The notes under the pieces were generated by a model, which saw nothing but the letters and a program-made list of their open reading frames with translations, was not told the DNA's origin and made no database searches. This document shows positions 49,600 to 62,390 of a stretch of DNA of 64,000 nucleotides, piece after piece. Location: the NCBI GenBank assembly GCA_013151335.1, contig JAADIJ010000092.1, positions 62,001-126,000 of the forward strand, in the 5' to 3' direction. The position numbers and the translations under genes were made by a program. This DNA is from Alphaproteobacteria bacterium (GTDB lineage: Bacteria; Pseudomonadota; Alphaproteobacteria; Rhodobacterales; Rhodobacteraceae). Positions within the stretch are counted from its first letter, which is position 1, and each line of letters starts with the position of its first letter.

Positions 49600-50409
49600 A
49601 TGTCCTATTCCATTGCCGGAAAAACCGCCATCGTCACCGGAGCTGCCAACGGCGTTGGCCTCGCCATTGCCCGCCATTTTGTTAACCAAGGTGCTTGCGT
49701 CATGTTCGCCGATATGGACGAGACCAAACTTGCCACCGAAGTTGACGCCGTGAAAACAGAGGACCGTCGCGCGCGCTATTTCGCCGGAGATTTGCGCCAG
49801 CGCCTGACGCTCGCCAACCTGCTCTCGGCAACCATCGACGCCTTTGATCGTGTTGATATACTGGTAAATGCGAGCCGTCAGGTGCTGCGCTCGGACCCGC
49901 TCAACCCGGATGAGGATGCGTTTGAGGCGCTGATCGAGCAAAACCTCACCACCAGCTTGCGCCTGACGCAGGTGGTGGCCAAACGGCTGATAAAACAGGC
50001 CGAGGACGAGGGATCGAAAGACGGCAATATTGGCTCAATCGTTAATATCACGTCGATTGCCGCAACACGGGCGCACCCGCAATTGCTGGCCTACTCAATC
50101 AGCGCGGCAGCGCTTGACCAGATGACCCGCTCCATGGCGGTCGCGCTCGCGGCCAACCGAATTCGCGTCAACGCGGTGGCGTTCGGCTCGGTGATGAGCG
50201 CGAGCTTGCGTTTCGCGCTCAAAGAACATCCCGACCTGCGCGGCATCGTTTCGGACGCAACGCCGCTTGGGCGTATCGGCGAAGCCAACGAGGTCGCCGA
50301 AGCGGTGCAATACCTCGCAAGCGAAAGTTCGAGCTTCGTCACCGGCCAAATATTAACCGTTGACGGAGGCCGAACCCTGATCGACCCCGTGGTCACCGCC
50401 GCGCATTAG
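49600..50409 (+). CDS. Short-chain dehydrogenase/reductase family protein lacking the catalytic lysine
   Basis: A 269-aa SDR with a normal nucleotide site (VTGAANGVGLAIA, TGxxxGxG) and C-terminal signature (GRIGEANEVAEAVQYLASE, SSFVTGQILTVDGG). Ser152 and Tyr165 stand at the catalytic spacing, but the Lys four residues after Tyr is Ala169 (AYSISAAALDQ), and the usual NNAG is VNASR. It may therefore bind NAD(P)(H) without normal catalysis. GAGGAAAAT precedes ATG. It converges with trcR, the ends overlapping by 4 bp. Confidence 0.9.
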   Translation: MSYSIAGKTAIVTGAANGVGLAIARHFVNQGACVMFADMDETKLATEVDAVKTEDRRARYFAGDLRQRLTLANLLSATIDAFDRVDILVNASRQVLRSDPLNPDEDAFEALIEQNLTTSLRLTQVVAKRLIKQAEDEGSKDGNIGSIVNITSIAATRAHPQLLAYSISAAALDQMTRSMAVALAANRIRVNAVAFGSVMSASLRFALKEHPDLRGIVSDATPLGRIGEANEVAEAVQYLASESSSFVTGQILTVDGGRTLIDPVVTAAH

Positions 50410-51163
50410 GGCTGCTCGTCTTTTTCGTCCTCGTCATCCTCATCCGCATCACCCTTGGGCAAATTGAACAGACTTTCGGCGTCAACCAGCTTGGTTTCGC
50501 TCTCTGGCTCGTCATCGGTGCTGAGTGAAAACGTCTCAAGACCGGACATGCTGGCCGGTACTTTCGGCGCATCCTCCAGCCCCAGCGACTGCACCGTTGA
50601 TACCAGCTTGCGCCGTTCGTCATCAGAGATCACGCCGCCCTCTTTGGCCTTCTTGGCAGCGGCTTTGCCCACAGCCGCGTCCAGCTCAAGCTGTTTGCAC
50701 ATGCCCAGCGCCACCGGATCGACAGGTTGTTAATATTCCAGTGGGTGCGCTCGCGAATCGCCTGAATGGTCGGCTTGGTCGTGCCCACCAATTTGGAGAT
50801 TTGGCTGTCGGCCAGCTCTGGATGAAACTTCACCAGCCAAGCAATCGCGCTCGGGCGATCCTGACGTTTGGAGAGCGGGGTATAGCGCGGCCCCTTGCGT
50901 TTCAGCTCGCCCTCGGCAGCAGGGTTATATTTCAGCTTCAGCTTGAGGCGGGGGTTTTTCTCTGCCGCCTCGATCACCTCTTTATCAAGCTGGGTATTGG
51001 CAATCGGATCGAACCCCTTAATGCCAACCGCGACCTCGCCATCGGCAATACCGTTGACCTCCAACTCGTGCAAACCGCAAAAATCGGCGATCTGTTTGAA
51101 TGTCAGCGTGGTGTTGTCAACCAGCCAAACTGCGGTTGCTTTGGCCATAAGGGGCAGTGCCAT
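50406..51163 (-). pseudogene. trcR: DUF1013 cell-cycle regulator TrcR, frameshifted
   Basis: DUF1013 proteins are conserved in alphaproteobacteria and annotated as cell-cycle transcription regulators. From ATG 51163 (GGAGGA 7 nt upstream) the product reads MALPLMAKATAVWLVDN..., with helix-turn-helix-like LADSQISKLVGTTKPTIQAI and RERTHWNINNL, then falls out of frame near 50718-50721. The rest continues in another frame as DPVALGMCKQLELDAAVGKAA-like sequence to an acidic tail (DADEDDEDEKDEQP) ending at 50406. The junction CTGTCGATCCGG would be in frame with one more CGAT copy, which suggests loss of one unit of a CGATCGAT repeat. Confidence 0.87.
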
Positions 51164-51296
51164 GAGAGTTCCTCCGAAATAAGCACATCTTCCCCGTTCA
51201 GTGAAACCTGTCTGCGGAAATCCGCGCATGTCAGTTTTCGTGGGGGAATTCTCAGTGTATATAGGACGTATCGCGTCGATTGGAAAGGGGGATTTC

Positions 51297-51935
51297 ATGC
51301 TGCGTTTAACTGCCGTGCTCGCGCTGATCCTGCTGTCGATCAGCTACACGCTCGCTGGGGCCAAGCGCGCGGGCGAGTTTAAGTATTACGTCCTGTCGCT
51401 GTCGTGGTCACCGAGCTGGTGCGCCCTCAAAGGCGACGCACAATCTGCTGGGCAATGTGCCAAAAACAGCGGCTTTGGCTTCACTCTGCACGGCCTGTGG
51501 CCACAATATGCCAAGGGCTGGCCCTCGTTTTGCCAAACCGACGAGCCCGCACCGACGCGCGAATTAACCGCCGGAATGGCCGATATCATGGGCTCGGAAA
51601 AACTTGCCGCCCACCAATGGGACAAGCATGGCCGCTGCACAGGACTGTCGGCCAAACAGTATTTCTCCGTCTCGCGCGCCGCTTACGAGCGCGTCAATCG
51701 CCCGCACGTGTTTCGCAAACTCCTCAAGCCCCTGACCCTGCCCGCCCCAGTCATCAAGACCGAATTCCTGAAACAAAACCCCGCATTAAAGGCCAACATG
51801 CTGGCCGTAACCTGCAAACGCGGTCATTTCCAAGAGGTGCGCATCTGCCTGACCAAAGGGCTTGAGCCAACCGCTTGCGGGGCAGACGTGCTTGCCGATT
51901 GCCAACAAGCAGTGGTGTTCCCGCCAATAAGATAG
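51297..51935 (+). CDS. Secreted ribonuclease T2 family protein
   Basis: A 212-aa exported RNase: signal peptide (MLRLTAVLALILLSISYTLA), then CAS I FTLHGLWPQY (His65) and CAS II AHQWDKHGRC (His106, Lys110, His111). The residue after the first CAS II histidine is Gln107, where plant, fungal and E. coli enzymes have Glu. Several cysteines suggest disulfides, so it acts in the periplasm or outside. ATG 51297 has AAGGGGG upstream. It diverges from trcR. Confidence 0.92.
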   Translation: MLRLTAVLALILLSISYTLAGAKRAGEFKYYVLSLSWSPSWCALKGDAQSAGQCAKNSGFGFTLHGLWPQYAKGWPSFCQTDEPAPTRELTAGMADIMGSEKLAAHQWDKHGRCTGLSAKQYFSVSRAAYERVNRPHVFRKLLKPLTLPAPVIKTEFLKQNPALKANMLAVTCKRGHFQEVRICLTKGLEPTACGADVLADCQQAVVFPPIR

Positions 51936-55559: not shown

Positions 55560-55766
55560 ATGCAGGTATCGGTTCGTGATAATAATGTTGATCAGGCGCT
55601 TCGTGCGCTTAAGAAAAAACTGCAACGCGAAGGCGTTTTCCGCGAAATGAAGCTTCGGCAACATTTCGAGAAACCCTCCGTCAAGAAAGCCCGTGAAAAG
55701 GCCGAAGCAGTACGCCGTGCGCGCAAGCTGGCTCGTAAAAAAGCTCAGCGCGAAGGCGGACTATAG
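55560..55766 (+). CDS. rpsU: 30S ribosomal protein S21
   Basis: A 68-aa basic protein, [20 protein letters not shown], with the family's [15 protein letters not shown] and Lys/Arg-rich end. S21 helps the 30S subunit at initiation. It diverges from COQ9 and has its own strong terminator 50 bp after the stop, so it is probably monocistronic. Confidence 0.97.
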
Positions 55767-55816
55767 GCGGCTTACACTGCCAAACCGGCGGTGTTTTGCG
55801 ACATTTGCCAAACGCG

Positions 55817-55845
55817 AACCCCCGAGGCTTAGCCCGGGGGTTTTT
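55817..55845 (+). terminator. Intrinsic terminator of rpsU
   Basis: AACCCCCG and CGGGGGTT form an 8-bp outer stem with an inner GGC-TTA-GCC continuation (one bulged A), followed by TTTTT. It is a textbook hairpin and T tract. Confidence 0.9.
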
Positions 55846-55887
55846 CGTATGCGCTGCCATAACTTCGAGTAGCCCACTCCGAGAGCA

Positions 55888-56472
55888 TCAGCCCGTCTCG
55901 TGCAGATCCTTGCCTTCGTCATTCTGAAAAATCTCGCGCACTTTCACACCCGGAACCTTGTTCAAGGCATTAACCGCGCTGATCGGCCAGATGCTGATCG
56001 GGAAATCCTCAAGCCCCGGCACCAGCGCCAGCAGGTTCGAGGTGTTAACCGCACAAAATCCACTGAACGAGGCCCCACGATCAATCGCGGCGCGCAGGAT
56101 TTTTTCGGCCACAGCCGGTGACACTTCAAGCGTTTGCATCACCACACGAAACTTGGCCCGCGCATGATAATCAATGTAATACTGCAACATTTTCGGCGTC
56201 ATGCCATAAAGCATATCGGCGCGCTCCGGCACGTCCTTATTGTACCAAGTGCCGGCAGGATCATACAAAACCCGCTGGGACGCATTGATCAGCAACGACG
56301 AGTGTCCGGCCGAGTTGCTGCCATTTGCGATCACCGTCATCAGCGTGATCGAGGTCGGGCTAGGGTCGCTATAAGCCGCACTCGTCACCCGCTGATCCGA
56401 GGCCCATGGCAGTTGTGCCACGCAGCCAGACAGAAATAAAACCGTGAAACCTACTAAAAACAGACGCATCAT
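55888..56472 (-). CDS. Lipoprotein of unknown function, paralogue A of a tandem pair
   Basis: A 194-aa lipoprotein (lipobox LSGC, Cys17; GAGGATTA before the ATG pair). It shares with the upstream neighbour the blocks GHSSLLINASQRVLYDPAG, PERADMLYGMTP, YHAR and CAVNTSNLL. A conserved GHS-(S/A)LLI strand followed about 90 residues later by a conserved Cys is reminiscent of permuted NlpC/P60 (papain-like) hydrolases, but this is an inference from motif order only. It lies 57 bp downstream of paralogue B. Confidence 0.75.
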   Translation of the reverse strand: MMRLFLVGFTVLFLSGCVAQLPWASDQRVTSAAYSDPSPTSITLMTVIANGSNSAGHSSLLINASQRVLYDPAGTWYNKDVPERADMLYGMTPKMLQYYIDYHARAKFRVVMQTLEVSPAVAEKILRAAIDRGASFSGFCAVNTSNLLALVPGLEDFPISIWPISAVNALNKVPGVKVREIFQNDEGKDLHETG

Positions 56473-56529
56473 TAATCCTCACTGTCATATAAACGTTAAC
56501 AAACAATGCCCCCCGGCCTGCCCAGCTCC

Positions 56530-57090
56530 CTAATCGTATTCGTAAATCTTATCCGTAATGACCCCCGGCAGCTTGGCGAATGCCTTCATGATCGTCTTGG
56601 GAAACGCCGTGCGCGGGATGGTTTCAAAGCCGGGTATTTTGCGCAGAATATTGGTCACACTGATCGAGCACATGGCCTTGGGCACCGCGCCATAATTCTT
56701 GGTGGCGTTATAAACCATCTCGGCAATTTCAGGCGTAACGATGACCTTTTGGGTCACCACATGCCACGCTTTGCGGGCGTGAAAGCCGTAGTAGGTTTTC
56801 AACACCGCCGGGGTTATGCCGTAAACGAAATCATTGCGTTCCGGAGCAAAACTGCTTTTGAAATTGCCTGCCGGGTCAAAGATCACCCGCTCATGCGCGT
56901 TGATCAGCAGCGCCGAGTGCCCACCCGAGCCGTTATTATTGTTGATAACCGTGACCAGCGTGATCGAGGGCGGCTCGTTGTTTGAATAAGAGAATTTTGT
57001 AACCGCCTCGTCCGAGGCCCAAATCGACTCCGCACAGGCAGACAAAACCAGCAGCAACATCAGCGGCAATAATTTGATAATTCGCGGCAT
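56530..57090 (-). CDS. Lipoprotein of unknown function, paralogue B of a tandem pair
   Basis: A 186-aa lipoprotein starting at ATG 57090 (GAGGG upstream), signal MPRIIKLLPLMLLLVLSAC with lipobox LSAC. Mature blocks match paralogue A: GHSALLINAHERVIFDPAG, PERNDFVYGITP, FHAR, CSISVTNIL. The frame is open to 57177, but the signal peptide fixes the start. Probably arose by gene duplication and forms an operon with A. Outer-membrane location is likely (no Asp after the lipid Cys). Confidence 0.75.
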   Translation of the reverse strand: MPRIIKLLPLMLLLVLSACAESIWASDEAVTKFSYSNNEPPSITLVTVINNNNGSGGHSALLINAHERVIFDPAGNFKSSFAPERNDFVYGITPAVLKTYYGFHARKAWHVVTQKVIVTPEIAEMVYNATKNYGAVPKAMCSISVTNILRKIPGFETIPRTAFPKTIMKAFAKLPGVITDKIYEYD

Positions 57091-57293
57091 CAGACCCTCA
57101 TGAGACAAAACCACCCGCAATATCGGGCTGTCACGAGCGGGCCACGAAATCGTTACCCACGCAAGGTCTAGACCCACGGCGAGTCCGATCTGTTGCGAAA
57201 TGGGCTCAGAACCAACGTGATTGTGAACGTCAAGACACGAGTAACAGGCGAATAACCCTACTGTTTATGGATGGTTACACGTCCGAGCCGCGC

Positions 57294-57428
57294 TTAGCTG
57301 TTGAAGACCGCCAGAAATATCAACGCACCGATACTGATTCCCGCAACCCAGATGGTGGTCTTGATGAACCCTTGAAACGCGCGCTCATGCGATTGAACAT
57401 CCATTGATCCGTGCTTATATTCGGCCAT
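57294..57428 (-). CDS. aa3-type cytochrome c oxidase subunit IV
   Basis: A 44-aa protein, MAEYKHGSMDVQSHERAFQG, then one membrane helix (TTIWVAGISIGALIFLAVF). It matches the small bacterial aa3 subunit IV first seen in Paracoccus, which caps the oxidase. ATG 57428 has AGGGAG 6 nt upstream; the longer open frame to 57479 lacks support. No other oxidase gene is nearby, which is usual for this orphan subunit. Confidence 0.9.
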   Translation of the reverse strand: MAEYKHGSMDVQSHERAFQGFIKTTIWVAGISIGALIFLAVFNS

Positions 57429-57542
57429 TGCCATCTCCCTGATTATTGTTGTCGTGTTTTTATAGCACAGCGCCCGCAAAGTAACTGCGTCGCAGCGTCC
57501 TATGCCTCAGAAACGGATGTTGGGCAACATCTAAGCCATCCC

Positions 57543-58589
57543 TCAGGCGATCTTCCACAGCCACGCGTCATCATCGCGACGGGTTCTCGTAACCGCTCCC
57601 AGATGGTAAAGATGATTGAGATGGGCGATGGCCTCCACCAGCGCCAGCCCATATTCACCCTCGCCAATCGGGCGTTTGAACAGGGTGACAAAACACTCCG
57701 CCGCCGTGCGCTCCTCGCTCAGAAAGGTTTTCAGCCGCTCCAACCCGTTATGGTGATTTCTGATCAGTTGCACCATGCGCGCAGGCAGGCCGGTAAAGGG
57801 CAGCTTGTGGCCCGGCAACACCAGATGTTCCTCGGTTGCAAAATGTGAAAGCCGCTCGCAAGCTTCCAGCCAATCTTCCAGCGGGTCGGCCTCGGGTTCG
57901 GTGGCGTAAACGCCGATATTGGGCGAGATCGAGGACAAAATCTGATCGCCCGCCAGCACCAACGGCTCCTCGCGGCACCAAAATGTCGCGTGCTCCGGCG
58001 CGTGACCGTTACCCATGCGAATATCCCAATCGCGCCCGCCCATGCGCAGCACTTGCCCCTCTTGCAGCCGCTCAAAGCCCAGCGGCATAGGCGCGACCAC
58101 GTCGGAAAACAGAAAGGGCCGCTCCTTGAGGCGTTTTTGATAAATCTTGGCGTCCATCCCACCAGAGCGGTAATGCAGCAGCGTCTCCTCTTTTTGCACC
58201 TCATGGGCGTCCAGCGTCAGCATCCGCGCAAACAGCCAAGCGGTGCGCGTGGTCAGCAAAGTCGCGCCAAAATCCGATTGCAACCACCCCGCCAAACCCA
58301 TGTGATCAGGGTGGTGATGGGTGGCAATTACCCGCCGGATCGGCAGCCCTTGCAGCGGCCCCGCCATGATTTTGCGCCAAACTTCGCGGCTGCGGTTTGA
58401 GGCAAATCCGGTATCAACCACGCTCCAACCATCGCCGTCGCGCAGCGCAAAACAGTTCACATGATCCAGCCGCATCGGCAGCGGCATCCGAAACCACAAA
58501 ATGCCATCCGCGACCTCAATCGCCTCGCCCTCGGCAGGCGGGGTTTCAAAGGGAAAACGTATCGGTCTCATGCTCATGTCGCCATCCAT
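57543..58589 (-). CDS. MBL fold metallo-hydrolase
   Basis: A 348-aa metallo-beta-lactamase-fold protein with THHHPDHMG (HxHxDH), GHAPEHATF (third His) and VLAGDQIL (bridging Asp), plus LPGHKLPF (last His) and a C-terminal helical domain (about 280-348). Relatives include thioesterase-like hydrolases. Possible starts are ATG 58589, 58577 and 58571. It lies 4 bp after the acyl-CoA dehydrogenase gene, so the substrate may be an acyl-CoA-derived thioester; this is inferred only from the neighbour. Confidence 0.88.
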   Translation of the reverse strand: MDGDMSMRPIRFPFETPPAEGEAIEVADGILWFRMPLPMRLDHVNCFALRDGDGWSVVDTGFASNRSREVWRKIMAGPLQGLPIRRVIATHHHPDHMGLAGWLQSDFGATLLTTRTAWLFARMLTLDAHEVQKEETLLHYRSGGMDAKIYQKRLKERPFLFSDVVAPMPLGFERLQEGQVLRMGGRDWDIRMGNGHAPEHATFWCREEPLVLAGDQILSSISPNIGVYATEPEADPLEDWLEACERLSHFATEEHLVLPGHKLPFTGLPARMVQLIRNHHNGLERLKTFLSEERTAAECFVTLFKRPIGEGEYGLALVEAIAHLNHLYHLGAVTRTRRDDDAWLWKIA

Positions 58590-61771: not shown

Positions 61772-62390
61772 TCAGGCGGTCCCGCCAGACGCCGACAAAA
61801 AGCTCGGCGAGATACCAAGTGACGCCAAAGCCGCCCCCCATTTATCCCCGTCGCCCTCATTAAACACCAGATCATGTGTGGCGTCACAGGTCAGCCAGCC
61901 ATTGGCCTGAAGCTCGCTTTCAAGCTGCCCCGGCCCCCAACCAGCATATCCCAGTGCCAATAAAGCCGCATCAGGCCCGTCACCGTTGGAGATATCCTCT
62001 AAAATATCCAAGGTCGCCGTCATGCCAAATTTCTCGTCAACCTTCAGGGTTGAATCAACACTTTCATAATCAGGCGAGTGCAAAACAAAGCCCCGCCCAT
62101 GCTCTACAGGCCCGCCGAAATGCACGCGGATTTGACCGGCCTCCCTCGCGCGCCGCTTTCAGATCAAGCTGCTCCAGCAGATCATTGAACCTAAGCTCGG
62201 GGGCGGGCTTGTTGACAATCAGCCCCATCGCCCCATCCTCGGAATGGGCGCACATATAAATCACCGAGCGCTCAAACCGCACATCGCCCATCGAGGGCAT
62301 GGCGATGAGCAGTTTTCCGTCCAGATGCTGACTGGCCTCAAGTTTGTTGGCCTCGGGCTTTTTGGCAGAGGTTTTATCGGTTTTTTTCAT
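61772..62390 (-). pseudogene. YqgE/AlgH family protein (UPF0301), frameshifted
   Basis: YqgE proteins are conserved ~190-aa cytoplasmic proteins of unclear role. From ATG 62390 the frame reads [50 protein letters not shown] up to [10 protein letters not shown] and then shifts. A second frame carries the rest, [58 protein letters not shown]. The join lies at about 62136-62146 and needs the loss of one base (net +1 here). Converges with tsaC; diverges from the DsbD-like gene. Confidence 0.88.

Follow-up and report, generated by a model that had tools for sequence, protein, structure and literature searches.

Several permuted papain-like proteins have been described. TseH, YiiX, BcPPNE and the DUF862 protein 2wp7 are all described as belonging to this type (PMC3142127, PMC12994826, PMC10318531). 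BcPPNE carries a triad of Cys154, His49 and Glu64 accompanied by a conserved tyrosine, and YiiX has a bound fatty acid (PMC3142127). TseH and Tox-Act1 cleave phospholipids, and DUF4105 corresponds to the lipoprotein N-acyltransferase Lnb (PMC12994826). In Staphylococcus aureus, the permuted NlpC/P60 protein LnsA takes part in lipoprotein N-acylation and works with LnsB (PMC7387801).

Lipoprotein modification has also been connected with copper. In Escherichia coli, copper blocks the Lgt step: the lipoprotein intermediates that form match those of cells lacking Lgt, and lnt lies in the copper-tolerance locus cutE (PMC6538781). Copper also inhibits L,D-transpeptidases by acting on their thiols, and it interferes with disulfide formation (PMC6593411). 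Mobile DNA of Gram-positive bacteria carries lit2 and a second lgt alongside copper resistance (PMC8275575, PMC7387801). Among the papers listed on Rhodobacteraceae or Roseobacter in connection with copper, plasmids and lipoproteins, judged by title and abstract opening and mostly exclusive of subscription papers, none describes the family presented here. We regard this family as unnamed, with a fold shared by a known superfamily, and its distribution is linked to copper in a way for which we found no description.

The window, a stretch of DNA of 64,000 nucleotides, carries two adjacent members of this family, P0001 and P0002 (Table 1). The earlier note on this DNA had proposed two neighbouring related lipoproteins, and both open reading frames were recovered where it had placed them, with products 42% identical over 171 residues (E 4e-51, single comparison). 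Lipoprotein signals stand at both N-termini (...LVLSAC in P0002 and ...LFLSGC in P0001), and GAGG lies just 5' of each start codon; for P0002, a GTG further upstream at 57177 would add 29 residues, and the lipoprotein signal favours the ATG at 57090. The motifs that the note had listed as common to the two proteins are all present, namely GHS(S/A)LLIN, (Y/F)DPAG, PER(A/N)D, YG(M/I)TP, HAR and a cysteine followed by a block, which reads (S/T)N(L/I)L in our alignment. The note had also placed a histidine before a conserved cysteine some 90 residues further on; the order holds, and the spacing has to be corrected to 83 residues in both proteins (His57/Cys140 in P0001, His58/Cys141 in P0002). The same tandem pair occurs in a second genome of the genus (G169, locus L067) and at loci L065, L066, L068 and L071.

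Table 1. Features of the tandem lipoprotein locus, in window positions
Feature	Positions	Strand	Description
P0001	55888-56472	minus	194-aa lipoprotein, fast-diverging tandem paralogue; ORF and translation
Cys140 codon, P0001	56053..56055	minus	presumed nucleophile; invariant 152/152; sole cysteine past the lipobox
Asp71 codon, P0001	56260..56262	minus	presumed third triad residue; invariant column 152/152
His57 codon, P0001	56302..56304	minus	presumed general base; invariant column 152/152
P0002	56530-57090	minus	186-aa lipoprotein, groups with the native single-copy form; ORF and translation
Cys141 codon, P0002	56668..56670	minus	presumed nucleophile; invariant 152/152; starts model helix 141-149; sole cysteine past the lipobox
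Asp72 codon, P0002	56875..56877	minus	presumed third triad residue; invariant 152/152; right after model strand 68-71
His58 codon, P0002	56917..56919	minus	presumed general base; invariant 152/152; within model strand 56-64
aa3-type cytochrome c oxidase subunit IV	57294..57434	minus	46 aa; PF07835, E 3.3e-10; upstream of P0002, the usual position relative to the native copy

Around the pair, a scan of 55700-57700 for promoters and terminators found 2 and 1, compared with 1.6 and 2.3 in shuffles. On the opposite strand just past P0001 (55560-55766, plus) lies what we take to be a ribosomal protein S21-like gene. Elsewhere in the window, two overlapping ORFs at 61772-62390 (minus) together resemble one protein, presumably of the YqgE/AlgH type, read in two frames, which points to a frameshift, either genuine or introduced by assembly; two overlapping minus-strand ORFs at 50406-51298 likewise resemble one frameshift-broken protein. 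Such pairs suggest small assembly errors in the contig.

The earlier note recognised no named family in P0001 and P0002, and neither matches a Pfam or NCBIfam model over the curated cut-off; a scan of 31 family members returned only the lipoprotein-attachment model, in seven of them, and weak scattered matches. In a BLAST search with P0001, 163 of 198 genomes from the window's taxonomic family were positive, 153 of them with a single copy. With a family profile, 100 of 101 genomes of an order-level sample, all shown as members of that taxonomic family, gave a match, as did 4 of 289 genomes sampled at class level and, strongly, 15 of 299 sampled at phylum level, these too all from that one taxonomic family; no more than 10-11 first-look candidates per genome were scored in the class and phylum surveys. 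Four further genomes of the phylum-level sample, outside the taxonomic family, gave partial matches of 14.6-16.1 bits (E 0.013-0.025), which we read as chance. Among the genomes sampled, the lipoprotein family is therefore not convincingly present outside this one taxonomic family. Phages gave no family match up to E 0.1, and 13 pattern matches in viral contigs included no relative. The 80 loci examined for genomic context (L065-L144) are the best 80 of at least 561 and thus lean to close relatives; their titles name Rhodobacterales wherever they are more specific than Alphaproteobacteria. The native copy is best explained as a core gene of its bacterial group.

Residue conservation was assessed on 152 native, island and tandem sequences, with identical sequences counted once and each trimmed to its profile match; the set was drawn from the loci in hand and not from all matching genomes. 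In P0002 numbering, His58, Asp72, Pro73, Gly75, Ala123, Gly134 and Cys141 are invariant, His104 and Arg106 are found in 151 sequences and Gln114 in 148. The lipobox cysteine, Cys19, is present in 151 (the remaining row being a gap), and the lipobox pattern is matched in 147. His58 and Cys141, on which the enzymatic reading of the earlier note turned, are kept by every sequence in the set. Cys141 is moreover the only cysteine of the mature chain in 151 sequences, the exception being a very divergent copy in genome G273 considered below; this speaks for a catalytic thiol rather than a structural disulfide, and a disulfide role was rejected on this ground. No tyrosine is invariant: position 133 is Tyr in 83 of the 152, and position 100 is Tyr in 148 but lies far from Cys141 in the sequence.

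AlphaFold2 models, built from 31 sequences each, reached a pLDDT of 93.5 for P0002 and 90.0 for P0001, and the presumed triad residues of P0001 fall in the same secondary-structure elements as those of P0002 (Table 1). Alignment with VIA-align against Foldseek's top PDB chains placed TseH (6v98) and YiiX (2if6) first for both models, in agreement with the permuted NlpC/P60-like reading of the earlier note and away from any fold unrelated to papain-like enzymes. For P0002, TseH scored Z 9.6 (135 aligned, rmsd 4.2), YiiX Z 8.9 (123 aligned, rmsd 3.0) and BcPPNE (3kw0) Z 7.6 (126 aligned, rmsd 3.8), the next row falling to Z 3.2. For P0001, TseH scored Z 10.0 (140 aligned, rmsd 4.0), YiiX Z 8.3 (123 aligned, rmsd 3.0) and the DUF862 protein 2wp7 Z 4.0 (103 aligned, rmsd 4.3), with Z at most 3.1 for the rest; BcPPNE is absent from the P0001 list, and neither list holds a structure named LRAT. 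The tool cautions that Z below 8 may reflect just a common arrangement, and we accept the permuted papain-like fold because of the large gap in Z below the top rows and the common type of the structures in them. Plain Foldseek against the PDB returned 428 matches, none with E of 0.001 or less and with Mediator subunits at the top, YiiX and TseH surfacing only on re-alignment; a family-profile sequence search of the PDB gave five matches (best E 0.21), none relevant. In a viral structure library, the best match was a Terrestrivirus protein of unassigned function (E 4.8e-3), next to a 'cysteine peptidase' of a phage (prob 0.77); neither served as evidence. Judging from the models, the family very probably has a papain-like fold with a cysteine active site.

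The comparison with the named systems refines this placement. The family and the YaeF/YiiX-like enzymes (YiiX, BcPPNE; Peptidase_C92) are alike in predicted fold, in their His-acid-Cys order and in their single-domain size, with a His-to-acid spacing of 14 residues in the family against 15 in BcPPNE. They differ in that the acid of the family is Asp and not Glu, that the conserved tyrosine is missing and that a lipobox is present. We therefore credit the family with the fold and the dyad and, as the conserved tyrosine is lacking, stop short of counting it as a full PPNE family member. TseH, a permuted NlpC/P60 secreted effector, gave the highest Z for both models, but it serves bacterial competition, whereas the family is a core lipoprotein of the cell itself; with an identity of 7-8%, the two are likened by structure and not by sequence family.

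Profile comparisons drew on 36 Lnb_N and 14 Peptidase_C92 domains, leaving out the weak Lnb_N loci L164 and L165, the C92 loci L209 and L210 and unlisted Lnb_N places. Against Peptidase_C92 (PF05708), the family scored 14.1, a value reached by 23 of 60 shuffles, with a profile of 14 domains only, 10 of them partial. The other domain, PF13387 (Lnb_N), which we take to have been formerly named DUF4105, is that of a lipoprotein N-acyltransferase of Bacteroides. With all 36 Lnb_N domains, the score was 25.6 over 128 columns, the GH at the strand start falling on GH and the cysteine in register with NC; none of 200 column shuffles scored as high (HH probability 12%, E 0.0024 as a single comparison), and none of 25 real control profiles reached this score, DsbA coming closest at 23.8 over 14 columns. 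The long-type Lnb_N subset did no better against the family than shuffles (30 of 60 as high), and hmmscan of P0001, P0002 and 31 members gave no PF13387 match over the curated cut-off. The family consists of free-standing lipoproteins of about 190 aa, whereas long Lnb_N frames have 600-690 codons; Lnb_N proteins were found in 9 of 61 order-level genomes and are absent from the window genome. This profile similarity to Lnb_N is a lead and not membership.

From the lipobox, the invariant residues, the predicted fold, the distribution and the linkage, all of them computed, we infer catalysis, a substrate and a reason for the link with copper. Both products would be envelope enzymes that are anchored by lipid and built on a circularly permuted NlpC/P60 (papain-like) fold. 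In them, Cys141, activated by His58, would attack an acyl bond, ester or amide, Asp72 would orient His58, and the acyl-thioester would then be handed over, either to water or to an acceptor amine or alcohol. The likeliest substrate would be a membrane lipid or the lipid-modified N-terminus of a lipoprotein, because the studied permuted members act on lipids and have hydrophobic pockets. As a whole, the statement that the family is an acyl- or lipid-acting, membrane-anchored cysteine enzyme of the envelope with a copper-related role is offered tentatively, with a little less than even credence.

The same cysteine enzyme could instead be a peptidoglycan hydrolase or amidase, cutting cell-wall peptides like the canonical NlpC/P60 lipoproteins. 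Such an activity would suit the copper islands presented below, where L,D-transpeptidases accompany the family in seven of the opened islands, PBP2 and an M23 peptidase together in two, PBP2 alone in one and M23 alone in one. It is nevertheless unlikely, the best structural matches being permuted members that are described as lipid-acting with hydrophobic pockets (PMC3142127, PMC12994826).

At the native site, the gene upstream of P0002 encodes subunit IV of the aa3-type oxidase (Table 1), followed on the minus strand by genes for a metallo-beta-lactamase-fold hydrolase and an acyl-CoA dehydrogenase. Context labels were assigned by tblastn with 25 reference proteins, which is not a full annotation. 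Within 8 kb of the 84 family ORFs found in 79 of the 80 loci (L104 yielded none), subunit IV was matched for 65, the hydrolase for 69, the dehydrogenase for 66, and AzlC and AzlD for 49 each; over the loci examined, 69 of 79 same-strand subunit IV matches lie 0-107 bases from the family ORF. This link is not obligatory, since 13 family ORFs outside copper islands, including that of Rhodobacter capsulatus (L101), are without a subunit IV match; with the islands, 28 of 106 ORFs are without one within 8 kb, and an obligatory partnership with the oxidase subunit was rejected accordingly. The native site of the family gene is not in a copper island, and the same holds for the window copies; a scan of the window for CueR-like operators gave 2 matches with 3 mismatches against a chance mean of 7.95.

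These surroundings could also point to a non-enzymatic lipoprotein of copper or oxidase assembly, in which His58, Asp72, His104 and Cys141 would bind copper and the links with subunit IV and the islands would express copper handling for the aa3 oxidase. The subunit IV gene adjoining most native copies, the copies in copper islands and the near-constant His104 would all fit this role, but the mature protein offers one cysteine only, His and Met are not enriched in the island copies (means of 2.8% and 2.9%, against 3.1% and 2.1% in native ones), the association with subunit IV fails in the ORFs just counted and the fold match accounts for the same residues as a triad. We consider it improbable.

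The case for a copper-related role draws on where additional copies are found. A family copy was found in 39 plasmid records, of which 31 are typed as conjugative. Twelve of these records were opened. Copper or metal genes surround the family copy in 11, and the remaining one, on the megaplasmid of Ruegeria sp. TM1040, has the native neighbours. Six of the opened islands combine a copper ATPase, Lgt, an L,D-transpeptidase and a multicopper oxidase; four have a multicopper oxidase together with DUF411, three of these four also carrying Lnt and three carrying PBP2 and DsbA; in a Sulfitobacter island, DUF411 occurs with an L,D-transpeptidase and a cation transporter, and the stretch shown has no multicopper oxidase. 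Of the 84 family ORFs of L065-L144, 7 are likewise in islands. Ten genomes of the BLAST-positive set have several copies; two of them hold tandem pairs (G000 and G169), and in all eight others the extra copy lies in a copper island, the label resting in G166 on a DUF411 match alone. The plasmid and multi-copy-genome counts overlap, because replicons of some of these genomes are also among the plasmid records.

The profile survey added two multi-copy genomes. In G270, the second copy (L228, 8028-8582, minus) has neighbours that match none of the 25 reference proteins, a context neither native nor copper-related. In G273, a very divergent copy (L229, 8980-9900, minus) adjoins a normal one; it sits on an end branch of 8.3 changes per column, keeps the His, Asp and Cys columns and is alone in having two mature cysteines.

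In a quick maximum-likelihood tree of the 152 sequences, with SH-aLRT support only, the island copies separate into two starred clades, one of 7 rows and one of 10, the latter nested among native copies; the island label needs two changes. Two recruitments of extra copies into mobile copper islands best explain this pattern. P0002 clusters with five copies from tandem-bearing genomes or loci (support 96, starred), and P0001 with its five counterparts forms a clade of its own (100, starred) whose stem measures 1.03 changes per column; P0001 is best explained as a clade-specific tandem duplicate that diverged fast and kept the triad. That an ordinary envelope enzyme without a copper role was captured by copper plasmids by chance is quite unlikely. 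In favour of such a capture, the Lgt-type island copies are near-identical on many plasmids, so that one capture is counted many times, and the native site is not a copper island; against it, there are two separate island clades with different partner sets, and one set has a DUF411 gene about 100 bases downstream on the same strand.

The reading as an envelope cysteine enzyme with a copper-related role gives these associations a possible sense. In ten of the Rhodobacterales plasmid islands (L145, L146, L148-L152 and L154-L156), further copies of Lgt or Lnt, L,D-transpeptidase, PBP2 and DsbA/DsbB amount to a spare set of envelope enzymes. By analogy with the E. coli work cited above, the island partners would largely be the functions that copper hits there. 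Island members of the family could then be part of a replacement set for thiol-dependent envelope enzymes, copper making the function of the family either necessary or vulnerable. On the simplest joint view, the family is one more thiol-dependent envelope enzyme, an extra or hardened copy of which would benefit a copper-exposed cell. The context does not by itself pick a lipid substrate, because the islands also carry peptidoglycan enzymes.

Going further, the family could represent a new lineage of cysteine enzymes, acyltransferases or deacylases, that tailor lipoproteins or lipids, keeping lipoprotein N-termini or envelope lipids serviceable under copper. It would then be a moving part of a copper-proof envelope toolkit, convergent with the Gram-positive Lit2/Lgt2 operons, LnsA and Lnb; we regard this fuller proposal as speculative and rather doubtful. 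The Lit2/Lgt2 copper operons also consist of lipoprotein-tailoring genes moving with copper resistance (PMC8275575), and both they and LnsA (PMC7387801) are compared here by description only. Lit2 differs in being an unrelated membrane transacylase. In the window genome, an lnt gene passes the curated cut-off, so that the family is no stand-in for a missing Lnt there.

An unnamed gene, near-universal in the sampled members of a large bacterial family, thus gains a putative catalytic site that can be tested, and the family is placed close to a superfamily in which the permuted members studied to date modify lipids and lipoproteins. The repeated moves of the family to the side of Lgt, Lnt, L,D-transpeptidase and DsbA/B suggest that the islands carry spare or hardened thiol-dependent envelope enzymes, and the question of why lipoprotein-tailoring genes travel with copper resistance is made testable.
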